From Stenotrophomonas maltophilia (GTDB lineage Bacteria > Pseudomonadota > Gammaproteobacteria > Xanthomonadales > Xanthomonadaceae), in NCBI RefSeq assembly GCF_004684085.1, contig NZ_SRHZ01000029.1:1-64000 (forward strand): a stretch of 64,000 bases of DNA. Direction: 5' to 3'. The translations under genes and the position numbers were made by a program. The notes beneath the pieces were generated by a model. The model was not told the DNA's origin. It saw only the letters and a list, made by a program, of their open reading frames with translations, and made no database searches. Shown piece after piece: positions 26 to 6,657 of this stretch (its first letter is position 1; every line of letters starts with the position of its first letter).

Positions 26-1048
26 TCACAACCACTTCGCGCGCTTGAACAACCGGTACAACCCCACGCACACACCACCCACGCCGACAATCATCAGCGG
101 GTAGGACCAGGGCTGGCTCAGCTCCGGCATGTGGCTGAAGTTCATGCCGTACCAGCTGGTGATCAGCGTCGGCGCCGCCAGCAGCGCGGCCCATGCACCG
201 AGGCGCTTGACGGTCTCGCCCTGCGCAAGCGTCACCAGCGACAGGTTCACGCTCAGTGCCGTGCCCAGCATCTCGCGCAGGGTGTCGATCACATCGCTGA
301 TGCGTACCGCATGGTCGTGCACGTCTCGGATGTACAGCTTCACTTCGTCCGGAATCAGTTCGCCCTGGTAGCGGCGCAGCTGCGCCAACACGTCCTGCAG
401 TGGCGCCACCGCCATCCGCATCTTGTTCAATTCGCGCTTGAGCTCGTATAGCCGTACCACCGTGCTGCGCTTGTAGGTGTCGGCGAAGATGTCCTTTTCC
501 AACAGGTCCAGGGTGTCGCGGAAGCGGTGCACGATCGGCAGATAGTTGTCGACCACGAAGTCGGTTACCGCGTACAGGCAGTACGACGGGCCCATCTTCA
601 GTAGCTGCGGCTCGCGTTCCACCCGCGCACGCACCGGCGCGTAGGACAGCGACGCACCATGGCGCACCGTCACCAGGAAGCGCGGCCCGAGGAAGGCGTG
701 GGTTTCGCCGTACTGGATGCGCTCGTCGACCATCTGCGCGGTGGTCACCACCACGAACATCGAGTTGCCGTAGGTTTCCATCTTGGGCCGCTGGTGCGCG
801 TTGCGCGCATCCTCGATGGCCAGGTCGTGCAGGCAGAATTCTTCCTGCAGTTTCAGCAGCACATCCTCGTTGGGATCGTACAGGCCGACCCAGACAAAGC
901 CATTGCCACTGGCAATGACATCGCTGATGGTATCCAGGCTGATGTCGTGGCGTTTGCCCTCGTCATCGTAGTGGACGCAGTTGATGACGCAGGCGGGGTT
1001 GGCCGAGGCGGGAGCGGCAGCAGAGGCGGGCAATGACATGCCCGCCAT
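26..1048 (-). CDS. corA: CorA-type magnesium/cobalt channel
   Basis: This is a 340-residue inner membrane divalent cation channel of the CorA/MIT family, which normally admits Mg2+ (also Co2+ and Ni2+) as a pentamer. The C terminus shows the family signature: a hydrophobic first helix ending in YGMNF (GMN at residues 301-303), a short loop, then a second membrane helix and a basic tail (FKRAKWL). The N-terminal two thirds is soluble and charged, as in the cytoplasmic funnel. It lies 6 bp after the DUF4105 gene, so it is probably the last gene of the corC unit. The alternative start at M4 (MSLPAS) cannot be excluded. Confidence 0.93.
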   Translation of the reverse strand: MAGMSLPASAAAPASANPACVINCVHYDDEGKRHDISLDTISDVIASGNGFVWVGLYDPNEDVLLKLQEEFCLHDLAIEDARNAHQRPKMETYGNSMFVVVTTAQMVDERIQYGETHAFLGPRFLVTVRHGASLSYAPVRARVEREPQLLKMGPSYCLYAVTDFVVDNYLPIVHRFRDTLDLLEKDIFADTYKRSTVVRLYELKRELNKMRMAVAPLQDVLAQLRRYQGELIPDEVKLYIRDVHDHAVRISDVIDTLREMLGTALSVNLSLVTLAQGETVKRLGAWAALLAAPTLITSWYGMNFSHMPELSQPWSYPLMIVGVGGVCVGLYRLFKRAKWL

Positions 1049-1054
1049 CGTGCG

Positions 1055-2299
1055 TCAGGGCTGTGTTTTGGACAAGTGAGGACGGCGCCCCAGCACCCAC
1101 GCCAGTGCGACGTGGACAGGCAGCAGCAGCACGATCCACTGCACGTTGTACTGCGCCTGCAGGCTCAGCCAGTGCAGCACCAGCGCGGCCACGGCCTGCA
1201 CTGCCAGCAGCCACAGCACGACCCTGAACATGCGCCCGGGCACGCGTCGGCGCAGCAGGGCGATGGCCCCTGGCAGCAGCAGAACAGCCAGCGGCGAAAG
1301 CAGCAGCAGGTTGCGGTTTGCCCAGGCGGCGTAGTGGGTACTGAAGCCCCAAAGGAATACCAGCAGGCCGCCAGCGACGGCACACAGCAGCCAGAACGGC
1401 AGCGCCAGCCCGGCCAGCAGGCGCGGGCGGCGGCGCAGCGCCAGCACGCCGCCGGCGACGATCAGCCCGAGCAGCAGCCACGGCCACCAGCGGCGCGCGA
1501 ATTCCTTCGGCTCCGCATCGATGCGATGTGGCAGCAGCTCCTGTTCGGACTGCACCAACGGACGCCCATCGCTGTTGCGTGCCTGGCGCAGTGCATCGGC
1601 CAGCCGCATCGGCACGAAGGCTTCCTGCCAGCGCGACAGCGGCTGGTCGGCGAACGGCCCGAGGCCGACGTCGAAGCCCAGCCACATCCACGGTGCCGGC
1701 GAGGCCAGGCGCACCGATTCACTGCGGTAAGTATTGCCACGCGAGCGCCCCGACAGCTGCGACTGCAGGCGGCCATCGAGCGCCTTGTCCAGCGTGTCGC
1801 GCACCATCGTCGCGCAGTTGGCGGTGTAGTAGTCGTAGTGGTAGCGCGCGTTTTCCGGCTTGGCCCGCTCGGCCAGGTCGGCGGCCAGCGCCCTTGCCTG
1901 GTCCGGGCGCAGATCCAGCCACTGCACGCTGGCACCGCGGCCGGTCTCGTCGTAGTACGACAGGTCCTGCTGCAGCGGCAGCGCCACCAGGTAATACATC
2001 ATGTCGCCGCGCACGAAGCGGCCGATGAAATCATCCTCGGACGGATCGAAGTAGCCGAAGTTGTACGACGTCGCCTCGCCGCTGACCGGATCGATCACGA
2101 CGATGGCATCGTGACCGAAGCGCTCGAAGAACACCGTGCCCGGTTGCATGGTGACCACGCCGATGCGCGGGGCAGGGGCTTCGATGCTGGCCGGCGCTGG
2201 CGTGGCCGGCGAGGGCTGGGCAAACGCAGCCAGCGGAACGGCCATGGCCAGCACACACAGTGCCAGCCACACGGTCAGGATCAGTCCGCGGCGCTTCAA
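1055..2299 (-). CDS. DUF4105 (Lnb N-terminal domain-like) membrane protein
   Basis: A 414-residue protein with a signal peptide (cut near residue 27), a periplasmic domain (about 40-240) and a C-terminal bundle of about five membrane helices (about 272-405). The periplasmic part has the conserved His in FERFGHDAIVV (H63) and the NC pair in YTANCATMVRD (C162) that I associate with DUF4105, the domain found at the N terminus of Lnb, a lipoprotein N-acyltransferase described in Bacteroides. The start overlaps the corC stop by 4 bp (ATGA), so the two are co-translated. Acyltransferase function is inference only; a thiol-hydrolase-like envelope enzyme is equally possible. Confidence 0.75.
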   Translation of the reverse strand: MKRRGLILTVWLALCVLAMAVPLAAFAQPSPATPAPASIEAPAPRIGVVTMQPGTVFFERFGHDAIVVIDPVSGEATSYNFGYFDPSEDDFIGRFVRGDMMYYLVALPLQQDLSYYDETGRGASVQWLDLRPDQARALAADLAERAKPENARYHYDYYTANCATMVRDTLDKALDGRLQSQLSGRSRGNTYRSESVRLASPAPWMWLGFDVGLGPFADQPLSRWQEAFVPMRLADALRQARNSDGRPLVQSEQELLPHRIDAEPKEFARRWWPWLLLGLIVAGGVLALRRRPRLLAGLALPFWLLCAVAGGLLVFLWGFSTHYAAWANRNLLLLSPLAVLLLPGAIALLRRRVPGRMFRVVLWLLAVQAVAALVLHWLSLQAQYNVQWIVLLLPVHVALAWVLGRRPHLSKTQP

Positions 2300-3177
2300 G
2301 CGTCGTCCTGCGCGTCCGGCGGCAGCACGGTCACGTGGAAGGCCTGCACCCGGCGCGCATCGGCGCGGGCCACGCGGAACAGGAAGCGGTCCAGCGCCAG
2401 CTCGTCACCGACTTCCGGCAGGTGCCCAACCGCCTCGGTGACCAGGCCGCCGATGGTGTCGTAGTCCTCGTCGGAGAAGGTGGCACCGAAGCGCTCGTTG
2501 AAGTCGCCGATCGCGGTCAGCGCATCGACCACGTACTGGCCATCGGACTGGATGGCGATCTGCGCCGACTGGTCCTCGGCCTCGTCGTGCTCGTCGTCGA
2601 TGTCGCCGACGATCTGCTCCAGCACGTCCTCGATGGTGACCAGGCCGGCGACACCGCCGTACTCGTCCACCACGATGGCCATGTGGTTGCGCGACAGGCG
2701 GAATTCCTTCAACAGCACGTTGAGCTTCTTTGCCTCGGGGATCAGCACCGCCGGGCGCAGCAGCTCGCGCACGTTGGCCGGGCCATTGTCGGCGACGACG
2801 CCGCGCAGCAGGTCCTTGGCCAGCAGGATGCCAAGGATGTCGTCCTTGTTCTCGCCGTGCACCGGGAAGCGCGAATGGCCGGATTCGACCACCTGCTTCA
2901 TCAGTTCCAGGAAGGGCGCTTCGACCGGCAGCGAGACCATCTGCGAGCGCGAGATCATCACGTCGCCCACGGTCAGCTCGGCCACCGAAATGGCGCCTTC
3001 CATCATCTTCAGGGTATCGGCGGCGATCAGACCCTCTTCCTGCGCGGTGTGCAGGACAGCGACCAGCTCGTCGCGGGTATGGGGTTCGCCGGAGAAGGCG
3101 GAAGTCAGGCGTTCAAGCCAGCCGCGCTTCTTTTCACTGTGCTCCGCGGGGGAGCTACTACTGTCGTCTTCTGACAT
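2296..3177 (-). CDS. corC: CorC/HlyC family CBS-domain protein
   Basis: 293 residues, starting MSEDDSSS. It has an acidic N terminus, a pair of CBS domains (about 65-190, from VGDVMISRSQMVSLP to DEYGGVAGLVTIEDVLEQIVG) and a C-terminal CorC_HlyC transporter-associated domain (about 205-285, including DEDYDTIGGLV). No membrane domain is present, so this is the short cytoplasmic form (E. coli YbeX), linked to Mg2+/Co2+ efflux and ribosome homeostasis. In many proteobacteria it sits with miaB, phoH and ybeY, as here. The reading frame stays open upstream, but the ATG at 3177 gives the usual family N terminus. Confidence 0.93.
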   Translation of the reverse strand: MSEDDSSSSPAEHSEKKRGWLERLTSAFSGEPHTRDELVAVLHTAQEEGLIAADTLKMMEGAISVAELTVGDVMISRSQMVSLPVEAPFLELMKQVVESGHSRFPVHGENKDDILGILLAKDLLRGVVADNGPANVRELLRPAVLIPEAKKLNVLLKEFRLSRNHMAIVVDEYGGVAGLVTIEDVLEQIVGDIDDEHDEAEDQSAQIAIQSDGQYVVDALTAIGDFNERFGATFSDEDYDTIGGLVTEAVGHLPEVGDELALDRFLFRVARADARRVQAFHVTVLPPDAQDDA

Positions 3178-3241: not shown

Positions 3242-3817
3242 TCAGTGGCCGTCGCTGCCCGGCCCGGTGATCGGCGCCGGTGCCAGTTCAGGCCGGGGGG
3301 CTTCCTCTTCGGGCAGGTCCAGACTGTAGGTGCACCCGGCCAAGGTTTTGCCGGGGTGGGAGGCCACGGTGGAGACGCTGAGGATGACCGACTCGATCTG
3401 GGCCTCGCCGGTCTTCGGGTCGGTGACGTCGCGGCTGACCAGCTCGCGGCCGGCCATGAACTTGCCGTCCTGGTCGTACCCGGTCTCCAGCGCCAGCCGC
3501 TTGGCCAGTGGCCGTGGATCGGCCTGGTCGAGGATCGCCATGACGCTGGCCCCGGCCACCGCCACCCGCTCGGTGGTCGTGCCAAACACGCTGATCGGCT
3601 GGGCCAGGCGGTACTCGCTCATGAACTGGTTGCCCTGCGGCAGCGGCTGCAGGCCCTGGGCCACGGCCTTCAGCGGGTCGGCCAGCAGCGGCGCCAGCGC
3701 GGCCTGCTCGGCCACGCCCTGGCGGCATTCGATCAGGGCCGGAAGGTCAAGGCTTGAGGCGAGGGCCGAAGGCACCGCAAAGGCACACAGCAGAGGCAGG
3801 CAGCAACGCAGGGACAC
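3242..3817 (-). CDS. Hypothetical secreted protein
   Basis: 191 residues with a clear signal peptide (MSLRCCLPLLCAFAVPSALA, cut near residue 20). The mature part has two Cys (ECRQG near the N terminus and GCTYSLDL near the C terminus) that could form a disulphide, and a Pro-rich, Glu-rich tail. I do not recognise a family. It lies on the same strand as, and 65 bp upstream of, corC, so it may be read in the same transcript. Probably periplasmic. Confidence 0.75.
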   Translation of the reverse strand: MSLRCCLPLLCAFAVPSALASSLDLPALIECRQGVAEQAALAPLLADPLKAVAQGLQPLPQGNQFMSEYRLAQPISVFGTTTERVAVAGASVMAILDQADPRPLAKRLALETGYDQDGKFMAGRELVSRDVTDPKTGEAQIESVILSVSTVASHPGKTLAGCTYSLDLPEEEAPRPELAPAPITGPGSDGH

Positions 3818-3844
3818 GGGCAGGTTCCGCAGGCGGGCTGGACA

Positions 3845-4456
3845 TCATAACGGTGACGGGCGCGGGTTCTCAGCCTTGCTGCTGCGGCGGCCGCGGGTCA
3901 GCAGGGCGCGTAGCCCCATCACCGGCAGGGTGAGCAGCACCGCCTTCATCGAAGCGTGGAGGATAGTGAGCAGCCCGCCGGCCGCCAACTGCAGCAGGCC
4001 CGGCTGTTCGAACCAGGGCATCAGCGCGGGTTCGGCGGCCCTTGCCAGTGTCATGTACATCGCGCAGAGCGCGTACAACAGCCAGAGTGAGGCGGTTGAC
4101 GCATGGAAGAACGGCAACGTAGCCGCCGAGCGTCGCAGGCGCTGCTGGACCACCACACGCCAGGCCACCGGCGCGGTGAGCGCGCCAATCAGCATCAGCA
4201 GCAGCGCGCTCGTCACCAGGCCCATTGTGGTGCTCATCCCGTGCCGCTGTTGCTGCAGGTGAGGCCCGATCACGCCGACCGCCAGGCTGGCAATGACGCA
4301 CGCCGGTGACAGCAGTGCCAGCGTGCGCAGCAGCCAGTGCTGCCCGCTGGGGTCGCGCGCGCTGACGCGGCGCACGGCATGCGCGCCCAGCACCAGCAGA
4401 ATGGCGAAAAGGCCGGCAGCCATCATAATCGTCATGAAGCCGTTCCCTGGGTTCAT
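3845..4456 (-). CDS. Hypothetical polytopic membrane protein
   Basis: 203 residues starting MNPGNGFMTIMM. The ATG at 4456 has an AAGGA-type ribosome site just upstream, which favours it over the ATG 12 codons earlier. Four hydrophobic segments are visible (about 5-25, 48-66, 79-98 and 118-138) plus a weaker one near 160-180; the C terminus is basic. No conserved motif is recognised and no function is proposed. It sits between ybeY and corC on the same strand. Confidence 0.65.
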   Translation of the reverse strand: MNPGNGFMTIMMAAGLFAILLVLGAHAVRRVSARDPSGQHWLLRTLALLSPACVIASLAVGVIGPHLQQQRHGMSTTMGLVTSALLLMLIGALTAPVAWRVVVQQRLRRSAATLPFFHASTASLWLLYALCAMYMTLARAAEPALMPWFEQPGLLQLAAGGLLTILHASMKAVLLTLPVMGLRALLTRGRRSSKAENPRPSPL

Positions 4457-4531
4457 CCTTTTTCCTTCCGCGTCCTGGCCGGTGTTGAACAATAGCGCAG
4501 CGCATGGGGTGGCACTCCAGCCCGGGCGCAG

Positions 4532-5140
4532 TCAGGGCGAATTCCAGCGCGTGGTCGCCGGGTACCAGCGCAGCCTGACCGGGTAGCCCAGCTGCACCTG
4601 CAGGTGGTCACGCACGGCCGCTGCCGTCGCGCGGTTGGCTGGGGTATCCCGCAGCTCAACCTCCAGCTCCCCGGTCTTGACATCCAGGCTATAGCCGAAC
4701 AGGTCGGGCAGCTGGGCCCGCAGCCAGTCCCGCTGTGCGTGCAGGCGGCGCTTCATCTCCGCTTCGGTCATCGCGGCGCCGGTGATGTAGTGCACACGTT
4801 GCGGGCCATCCGCCCCTGGATGTGCCTCATCGGCCTCGGGTGCGGTGCCTGTCAGTCGCACCACAACGTTCCAGCCCCTCGCATTGTCCACCCAGATGCC
4901 GGCCAGACGTGCCGCGTGCCGCGCTTCCAGGCGCTCGATCAGCGCCCGTTGCTGGGCAGTGGCGACGATGTTGCGAGTGTCGCGCTCGCTGCTGCCGAAG
5001 AACGCCCGTAGTTCGACGATCTTTGCGGCGATGTCGGCCTCGCTGTCGCTGGTGGGGAGCGGTGAGGGACGGTCAGGATCGGGCATCAGGCCTGCCCCGG
5101 ACTGCAGTAGCGCGGCAAGCACAAGTGCGGGCAGGGTCAT
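4532..5140 (-). CDS. Hypothetical exported protein
   Basis: 202 residues with a short N-terminal hydrophobic segment (LPALVLAALLQSGAGL) suggesting export, then a Pro/Ser-rich linker. It continues with an alpha-helical region (about 30-80) and a mixed region ending GELEVELRDTPANRATAAAV and YPVRLRWYPATT. The last part reads like a small alpha/beta domain with alternating hydrophobics, loosely reminiscent of protease pro-regions or inhibitor domains, but I would not assign it. It lies 48 bp downstream of ybeY and is probably co-transcribed with it. Confidence 0.7.
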   Translation of the reverse strand: MTLPALVLAALLQSGAGLMPDPDRPSPLPTSDSEADIAAKIVELRAFFGSSERDTRNIVATAQQRALIERLEARHAARLAGIWVDNARGWNVVVRLTGTAPEADEAHPGADGPQRVHYITGAAMTEAEMKRRLHAQRDWLRAQLPDLFGYSLDVKTGELEVELRDTPANRATAAAVRDHLQVQLGYPVRLRWYPATTRWNSP

Positions 5141-5188: not shown

Positions 5189-5674
5189 TCAGCGCTCGCC
5201 GGCGTACGGATCGGCGATGCCGAGCTCGGCCAGGATGTCGCGCTCCAGCTGCTCCATCGCCTCGGCTTCCTTGTCGTCCTCGTGGTCCCAGCCGAGCAGG
5301 TGCAGTACGCCGTGCACGGTCAGGTGCGCGTAATGGGCGTTGAGCGCCTTGCCCTGTTCGTCGGCCTCCCGCGCCACCACCGGTGCACAGATCACCAGGT
5401 CGCCCAGCAGCGGGAACTTGACGCCCTTGGGCAGGCCTTCGGGGACGTCAGCGGGGAAGCTGAGGACGTTGGTCGCGTAGTCCTTGCCGCGGTAGTGGCG
5501 GTTCAGCGACTGGCCTTCCTTGGCGTCGACCACGCGGATGGCCAGGTCGGCCTCGCGGATGCGGCCCTTCAGTGCGGCGGCCACCCACTTGCGGAAGCTC
5601 ACGGCCGCCGGCAGGCCGGCACGCGGCAATGCATAACTGACGGCGACGTCCAGTCGCACGGGACCACGGGTCAT
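5189..5674 (-). CDS. ybeY: YbeY endoribonuclease / rRNA maturation factor
   Basis: 161 residues. The zinc-binding signature of the UPF0054 family is complete: [11 protein letters not shown], with three His for the metal, near residue 120. Upstream is the conserved [17 protein letters not shown] block. YbeY is a single-strand-specific RNase acting in 16S rRNA 3'-end processing and 70S ribosome quality control. Its start overlaps the phoH stop by 4 bp, the normal arrangement, so the two are translationally coupled. Confidence 0.96.
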
Positions 5675-6657
5675 GGAGTCGCTCCAGGTTGGATCTGATG
5701 CAGGTCGCGGCGGTCGTAGGCGCTGACGATACGTGCCACCAGCGGATGGCGGACCACGTCGCGGGATTCGAAGAAGGTGAAGCTGACGCCCTCGACCTCG
5801 CGCAGCACGTCGATGGCATCGCGCAGCCCCGACTTCAGGTGCTTGGGCAGGTCGGTCTGGGTCAGGTCACCGGTAACCACTGCGGTGGAGCCATAGCCCA
5901 GGCGGGTCAGGAACATCTTCATCTGTTCGATGGTGGTGTTCTGCGCTTCGTCCAGGATCACGAACGCATCGTTGAGCGTGCGGCCGCGCATATAGGCCAG
6001 CGGCGCAATCTCGATGACGTTGCGCTCGAGCAGCTTGACCACCTTCTCCACGCCCATCATTTCGTACAGGGCGTCGTACAGCGGTCGCAGGTAGGGGTCG
6101 ACTTTCTGGCTCAGGTCTCCGGGCAGGAAGCCGAGCTTCTCGCCGGCTTCGACCGCCGGGCGCACCAGGATCAGGCGCTGCACCCGCGATTCATTCAGGG
6201 CTTCAACCGCGCTGGCCACGGCCAGGAAGGTCTTGCCGGTGCCGGCCGGACCGACGCCGAAATTGATGTCGTGGCTGGCGATCTGGTGCAGGTAGCGGGA
6301 CTGGTTGGCGCCGCGACCGCGCACGGTGCCGCGCTTGACCTTGATCGCCACGTCCTGCGCTTCATAGGAGCGTTCGGCGATCTGTTCGACGTTGGCCTGG
6401 GCCAGGCGCAGGTGGATGGCATGGTTGTCGAAGGTGGTCTCGCCGGCTTCGGCGTACAGCGCTTCGACCAGCTTCTGCGCCTCGACGATGGCCTCGTTCG
6501 GCCCGCTGATGCGGAACACGAAGCCACGGTTGGCGATCTCCACACCGAGCTTCAGCTCGATCTGGCGCAGGTGGCCGTCGAAGGGGCCGCTCAGGTTGGC
6601 CAGTCGCTCGTTGTCTTCCGGCGACAGGGTGAAGTCTCGATGATCGATGCTTTTCAT
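5671..6657 (-). CDS. phoH: PhoH-like ATPase (YbeZ)
   Basis: 328 residues, starting MKSIDHRDF. It has an N-terminal KH-like region (residues 20-100), then a P-loop ([11 protein letters not shown]) and Walker B ([10 protein letters not shown]) with the DEAQN box typical of PhoH/YbeZ proteins. YbeZ-type proteins bind YbeY and are thought to help rRNA maturation with an ATPase or helicase activity. The frame is open far upstream, but the ATG at 6657 gives the family N terminus. It is the first gene of the phoH-ybeY unit, so its promoter should lie in the 6658-7138 gap. Confidence 0.94.

Follow-up and report, generated by a model that had tools for sequence, protein, structure and literature searches.

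In Stenotrophomonas maltophilia, the lipoprotein N-acyltransferase is very probably the product of the gene that directly follows corC, an enzyme of the Bacteroidota Lnb type which replaces Lnt in its operon slot. The gene lies in the stretch of 64,000 nucleotides that was analysed as a whole (the window). The original prediction had proposed that a second type of lipoprotein acyltransferase stands in the position of lnt, and this proposal is supported by homology to Lnb through both domains, by the failure to find an Lnt in the genome and by an order-wide replacement in the same slot. The observations cover architecture, conservation, homology, the lack of a detectable Lnt, the common slot and the way in which the two genes complement each other in their distribution, whereas enzymatic activity, substrate, acyl donor and product are matters of inference.

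The lnb-like gene and its protein

The lnb-like gene occupies positions 1055..2299 of the window on the minus strand, as do all other window genes mentioned below, and encodes 414 amino acids from a TTG start. The protein begins with MKRR and a hydrophobic stretch within residues 3-32, a classic signal peptide, which hydropathy and a helix at residues 4-19 of the AlphaFold model place at about residues 1-28 (2216..2299; the end point is approximate). The periplasmic catalytic domain Lnb_N follows at residues 48-181 (1757..2158) with 52 bits against a cut-off of 22.2 (Pfam PF13387). It contains the invariant residues H63 (codon at 2111..2113) and N161-C162 (codons at 1814..1819), with C162 as the presumed nucleophile. 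The membrane domain 5TMH_Lnb at residues 274-398 (1106..1480) scores 33.6 bits against a cut-off of 25.2 (Pfam PF25221). Hydropathy delimits five C-terminal segments (270-289, 292-322, 329-351, 355-382 and 384-405), and these match the five longer helices of the AlphaFold model (mean pLDDT 83.8, pTM 0.76). The original prediction had listed a signal peptide, H63 and N161-C162 within a DUF4105 domain, and a membrane tail of five helices, and each of these features was recovered. Only the coupling to corC has to be corrected from ATGA to TTGA, a four-base overlap of the corC stop with the TTG start (2296..2299).

Hydropathy analysis also gives a consistent topology. The alternation of charges between the loops fits an N-domain in the periplasm and a C-terminal end in the cytoplasm, and the positive charges sit in those loops that would be cytoplasmic, given a periplasmic N-domain. 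A loop with a predicted periplasmic location contains H322, N328 and N330 and has P336 at its end. LNT_N and CN_hydrolase, the domains of Lnt, did not match the protein in the Pfam and NCBIfam scans.

Eight comparisons with relatives gave dN/dS ratios of 0.08-0.29, by which the lnb-like gene looks to be under purifying selection, and H63, N161 and C162 are unchanged in all 61 sequences from 60 genera, the window protein included. For these two reasons, the open reading frame is not a product of chance. The nearest named relatives of the protein belong to strains of the Stenotrophomonas maltophilia group, with up to 95% protein identity, and no relative was found on viral contigs.

A tblastn search against plasmid records returned five homologues from Bacteroidota and nothing else. 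The comparison of a profile of 34 sequences from the order (A1) with a profile of these five Bacteroidota sequences (A2) by hhalign yielded a probability of 100 and an E-value of 2.4e-61 over 342 columns, with 27% identity and coverage of both domains. Together with the two Pfam domains over their cut-offs, this bears out the Lnb-like layout that the original prediction had proposed. T50, G62-H63, Y102, N161-C162, G214, P230, G310, N328 and P336 are among the residues shared by all 13 sequences of a mixed alignment. That the equivalents of H63 and C162 are catalytic in the Lnb of Bacteroides is itself an inference from the superfamily, drawn from the part of PMC12994826 that was available. In the plasmid records of Bacteroides finegoldii and Parabacteroides, the DUF4105 gene lies near secA, and lptC or argB is also close; because of these neighbours, both records look like chromosomal DNA filed as plasmids.

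The NCBIfam model for the Lnb equivalog (NF051878) has a curated cut-off of 550 bits. The lnb-like protein reaches 164 bits over positions 28-355 of the 394 positions of the model and is for this reason assigned to Lnb as defined by Pfam, not as defined by NF051878. The protein from Bacteroides finegoldii passes with 667 bits; those from Parabacteroides (398 bits) and Hymenobacter (220 bits) fail as well.

The fold of the N-terminal domain points to YiiX and TseH. In VIA-align, the N-domain of the model gave Z-scores of 10.9 for YiiX, 10.7 for TseH and 7.3 for PLAAT4, of which the last is below 8 and may mean a common arrangement only; matches of the helical tail are of a kind against which the tool itself warns. 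Foldseek found nothing in the PDB at E ≤ 0.001 (best match TseH, E 3.2e-3), and a sequence search of the PDB gave matches only at E ≥ 0.24.

Lnt and Lnb at the corC locus and elsewhere

In the window, the lnb-like gene fills the position directly after corC in the arrangement ybeZ-ybeY-corC-lnt. All the other genes of this arrangement were identified by Pfam and NCBIfam, namely phoH/ybeZ (5671..6651, start approximate), ybeY (5189..5674) and corC/ybeX with its CBS and CorC_HlyC domains (2296..3177). A gene for a corA-type Mg2+ transporter is located downstream of the lnb-like gene (26..1048). Three small open reading frames without a clear Pfam family separate ybeY from corC (3242-5140), the sole match among them being a sub-threshold one to DUF3392. 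Several other genera have ybeY immediately before corC.

The original prediction had also proposed a search of the genome for lnt, and this search found no Lnt over the cut-off of TIGR00546 (132.9 bits) in the whole genome, a draft of 91 contigs rated 100% complete. The genome search gave 37.9 bits at best, and a scan of that protein in full length gave 57.6 bits. The genome encodes four CN_hydrolase proteins, with N-carbamoylputrescine amidase, nitrilase, amidohydrolase and NAD synthase as their best NCBIfam matches (the last two over the cut-offs), and none of the four has an LNT_N match. A hidden Lnt was rejected on these two grounds.

There are three Lnb_N proteins in this genome, and a match to 5TMH_Lnb was detected only in that of the window. 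The other two are encoded on contigs other than that of the corC-linked gene. The second one (contig C91, 1126-2142) has hydrophobic stretches before the domain and scores 160.4 bits for Lnb_N, which is above the score of the window protein. It matches neither 5TMH_Lnb nor any NCBIfam model, and since no more than 31 of 151 genomes from the order gave a match to it (E ≤ 1e-5), it was ruled out as an order-wide replacement of Lnt. It is perhaps another acyl-handling enzyme, the function of which is unknown. The third one (contig C35, 526-2625) is fused to DUF7844.

Our analysis of the distribution of Lnb is based on 151 genomes of the order Lysobacterales (NCBI), which corresponds to the Xanthomonadales. 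PF25221 matched in 131 of them at E ≤ 0.001, with 115 over the Pfam cut-off. Profile A1, searched in the 20 genomes left without such a match, rescued 15 further ones, three of them in part only, so that both searches combined detect Lnb in 146 genomes. Two of the five genomes without Lnb are only 80% and 84% complete. The other three (G006, G017 and G019; 94, 96 and 100% complete) are the only ones without Lnb that are at least 94% complete, and they possess a canonical lnt (LNT_N and CN_hydrolase, 298-305 bits) directly after corC. Altogether, 149 of the 151 genomes have either Lnb or a corC-linked lnt, and none of the examined loci had both at corC.

The picture is reversed outside the order. 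An Lnt over the TIGR00546 cut-off is absent in 131 of the 151 genomes of the order and present in 167 of 182 gammaproteobacterial genomes from other orders, and a full-length Lnb was found in none of these 182. Ten of them contain weak matches that cover just a section of the N-domain, and the frames concerned are at least 609 amino acids long. In a sample of 299 genomes from the phylum, the matches listed include full-length Lnb in seven genomes of the order and only partial N-domain matches in nine of the 292 others. The weak partial matches outside the order in both searches come from frames of 561-887 amino acids. The class and phylum searches scored at most ten and six candidates per genome, respectively, and may have missed a homolog.

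The position after corC is shared by both genes. For the analysis of the locus, the 60 genera in which PF25221 matched were represented by one genome each, and the genus of the window by an extra one, which makes 61 loci. In 59 of them, the immediate upstream neighbour is corC, in the same orientation and at a median distance of 65 bases from the start that the script selected; the other two show no corC within the stretch examined. It also adjoins the gene in 13 of 16 loci from the 15 genomes rescued by profile A1 (the remaining three show no corC in the short stretch examined, and two of these hold a partial gene only) and is directly upstream in all of the 80 named loci, which are the best 80 of 568 confirmed ones. 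In the same way, corC precedes lnt in all of the eight best-scoring lnt loci at class level, from the 167 genomes with an Lnt over the cut-off. The occurrence of corC upstream of both genes across these loci implies that lnt and the lnb-like gene are alternatives at one place.

The three canonical lnt genes represent two lineages, since G006 and G017 share one genus. In a tree of the CorC genes, the label Lnb or lnt needs three changes. The tree shows no single exchange, and one exchange with a reversal cannot be distinguished from two exchanges. G019 sits on a very long branch of this tree. With 265 bits for corC and 438 bits for phoH, both of its genes diverge strongly from those of the others (about 383-451 and 520-583 bits). 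It is therefore possible that G019 is misplaced in the order.

Besides Lnb, 17 of the 151 genomes encode an Lnt-like protein over the TIGR00546 cut-off which is not a corC-linked lnt, and others have weaker ones. Neither corC, ybeY nor phoH was found near the corresponding genes in 13 of these 17 genomes (stretches of 4.9-11 kb); the other four were left out of this check. In a quick tree, the 13 Lnt-like proteins and four weaker ones (17 rows) split from 11 corC-linked Lnt proteins with an SH-aLRT support of 90, which is below the mark of 95 set by the tool. On the strength of their neighbourhood and of this separation, we rejected the idea that they are relocated canonical Lnt proteins. They may nevertheless act on lipoproteins in those genomes. 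Six Lnt-like frames away from corC, in genomes where Lnb is also present, are 821-1079 amino acids in length with a long C-terminal extension, and these extended proteins may have a substrate other than lipoproteins.

Proposed function and alternatives

As the lipoprotein N-acyltransferase, the Lnb-like protein would act after Lgt and LspA. Within the periplasmic, permuted NlpC/P60-like domain, H63 would activate C162, onto which an acyl chain from a membrane phospholipid would be loaded as a thioester. The acceptor of this chain would be the apolipoprotein, whose diacylglyceryl cysteine offers a free amino group. LolDF would then receive a triacylated lipoprotein. The role of the five-helix domain might be to keep the active site on the outer side of the inner membrane, with the conserved residues H322, N328, N330 and P336 presented on the side of the active site.

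The lipoprotein export system of the host gives no additional support for this function. The single LolC/E-type gene over the cut-off (contig C26, 1489-3436) overlaps lolD and forms a lolF-lolD pair with it, and for this reason a need of LolCDE for triacylation was dropped as supporting evidence. According to the portion of a review that was available, LolDF systems go along with tolerance of Lnt loss (PMC11784454). Therefore, the absence of Lnt alone is no proof of a substitute, and the replacement in the same slot remains the main argument for one. For the same reason, the lnb-like gene need not be essential, and a third acyl chain is not a strict requirement.

The best surviving alternative, although an unlikely one, is a thiol enzyme in the slot that handles acyl chains for another substrate, such as a PLAAT/LRAT-like phospholipid N-acyltransferase or lipase, so that the lipoproteins stay diacylated. 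The accessible text of PMC12994826 ties the permuted NlpC/P60 group with its His and Cys centre to lipid enzymes, and phospholipid-acting ones are among this fold family. The tolerance of Lnt loss in LolDF systems fits such an enzyme, too, and so does a study on LolA and LolB of X. campestris, which, in the part available to us, reports that no Lnt gene was found and models diacyl anchors, inferred from this absence (PMC10368991). However, an enzyme for another substrate accounts poorly for the homology to Lnb through both domains, for the location in the lnt slot and for the presence of Lnb or corC-linked lnt in 149 of the 151 genomes, with both together at corC in none of the loci examined.

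It is even less probable that another path leads to N-acylation, such as the shift of a chain within the lipoprotein, which would have a Lit-like outcome without a standard triacyl anchor. The acyl donor cannot be read from a sequence, and Lit-type chemistry does exist, as far as the covered part of PMC11784454 goes. On the other hand, the activity of the Bacteroides Lnb is reported to be similar to that of Lnt in the available portion of PMC11694511, and the residues common to the Bacteroides Lnb are conserved in the lnb-like protein. That a missed or divergent lnt or the Lnb_N protein from contig C91 does the job, with the corC-linked gene in an accessory role, can hardly be maintained: the C91 protein outscores the window protein for Lnb_N and a draft in 91 contigs can miss genes, but the C91 protein was found in only about a fifth of the genomes and lacks 5TMH_Lnb and NCBIfam matches, and Lnt over the cut-off is missing throughout most of the order, not in one assembly.

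The lnb-like protein remains the probable N-acyltransferase in place of Lnt. Several points were counted against this function, namely the lack of activity data, the 164 bits for NF051878, the LolDF system, the 17 genomes with an extra Lnt-like protein, the CorC tree and the absence of a Foldseek match in the PDB.

For the order as a whole, including Xanthomonas, Stenotrophomonas and Lysobacter, we consider it likely that the lipoprotein N-acyltransferase has been swapped for a non-homologous thiol enzyme of the Bacteroidota type in the lnt slot, that the lipoproteins are N-acylated, against the diacylated state inferred in print for Xanthomonas, and that the place next to corC is kept for this step, with either enzyme. 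The matter is partly known. The kind of enzyme, Lnb, and a general exchange between DUF4105 proteins and Lnt have been described: a paper from 2026 reports, in the text available to us, that Lnt has repeatedly taken the place of DUF4105 proteins, which the paper links to Lnb, and names three genomic contexts for this (PMC12994826). Its main text, as far as covered, contains neither corC, ybeX nor Xanthomonas, and Stenotrophomonas only in a reference; its Fig. 4B, which was not covered, may show the corC context. In the literature searched, of which the coverage was partial, we found no statement on Lnb in Xanthomonas, Stenotrophomonas or their order, and the accessible part of a review states that 'almost all Gracilicutes produce Lnt' (PMC11784454). 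What the present study adds is the replacement across the order, the complementary occurrence of the two genes and the contradiction to the inferred diacyl anchors.

This is of relevance, since the order, to which plant pathogens and opportunistic human pathogens belong, is mostly without Lnt and possesses a different enzyme in its place. The presence of the lnb-like gene predicts N-acylated lipoproteins, unlike the diacylated ones inferred for X. campestris, and annotation by Lnt alone can misread lipoprotein structure, which may have happened in that case, judging from the covered part of the study (PMC10368991). By inference, Lnt inhibitors are not expected to act on most of the order. Two questions can now be tested directly: whether the lipoproteins of Xanthomonas and Stenotrophomonas carry three acyl chains or two, and whether a single position in an operon can be handed from one enzyme to an unrelated one with the same reaction.

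Comparison with known systems

With Lnt (TIGR00546), the lnb-like protein shares the slot after corC and presumably the reaction. The two differ in their domains, which are LNT_N and CN_hydrolase in Lnt and Lnb_N and 5TMH_Lnb in the lnb-like protein.

The five-helix Lnb tail is not known from the Tox-Act1, TseH, YiiX and PLAAT enzymes of the permuted NlpC/P60 group. Common to these enzymes and the lnb-like protein are the fold of the catalytic domain, which is close to that of YiiX and TseH and more weakly related to that of PLAAT4, and, as far as the partly available source describes it, the His and Cys centre.

The closest counterpart is Lnb, which Armbruster et al. reportedly described in 2024 as the lipoprotein N-acyltransferase of Bacteroides. 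It shows the same order of Lnb_N and 5TMH_Lnb, the same His and Asn-Cys and the invariant N328 and P336. In contrast, the lnb-like protein is only 22-27% identical to the five Bacteroidota sequences, remains below the cut-off of NF051878 and comes from a gammaproteobacterium. The genes also differ in their surroundings: those of Bacteroides finegoldii and Parabacteroides are located before an alkaline phosphatase gene and secA, whereas the lnb-like gene of the window follows corC.
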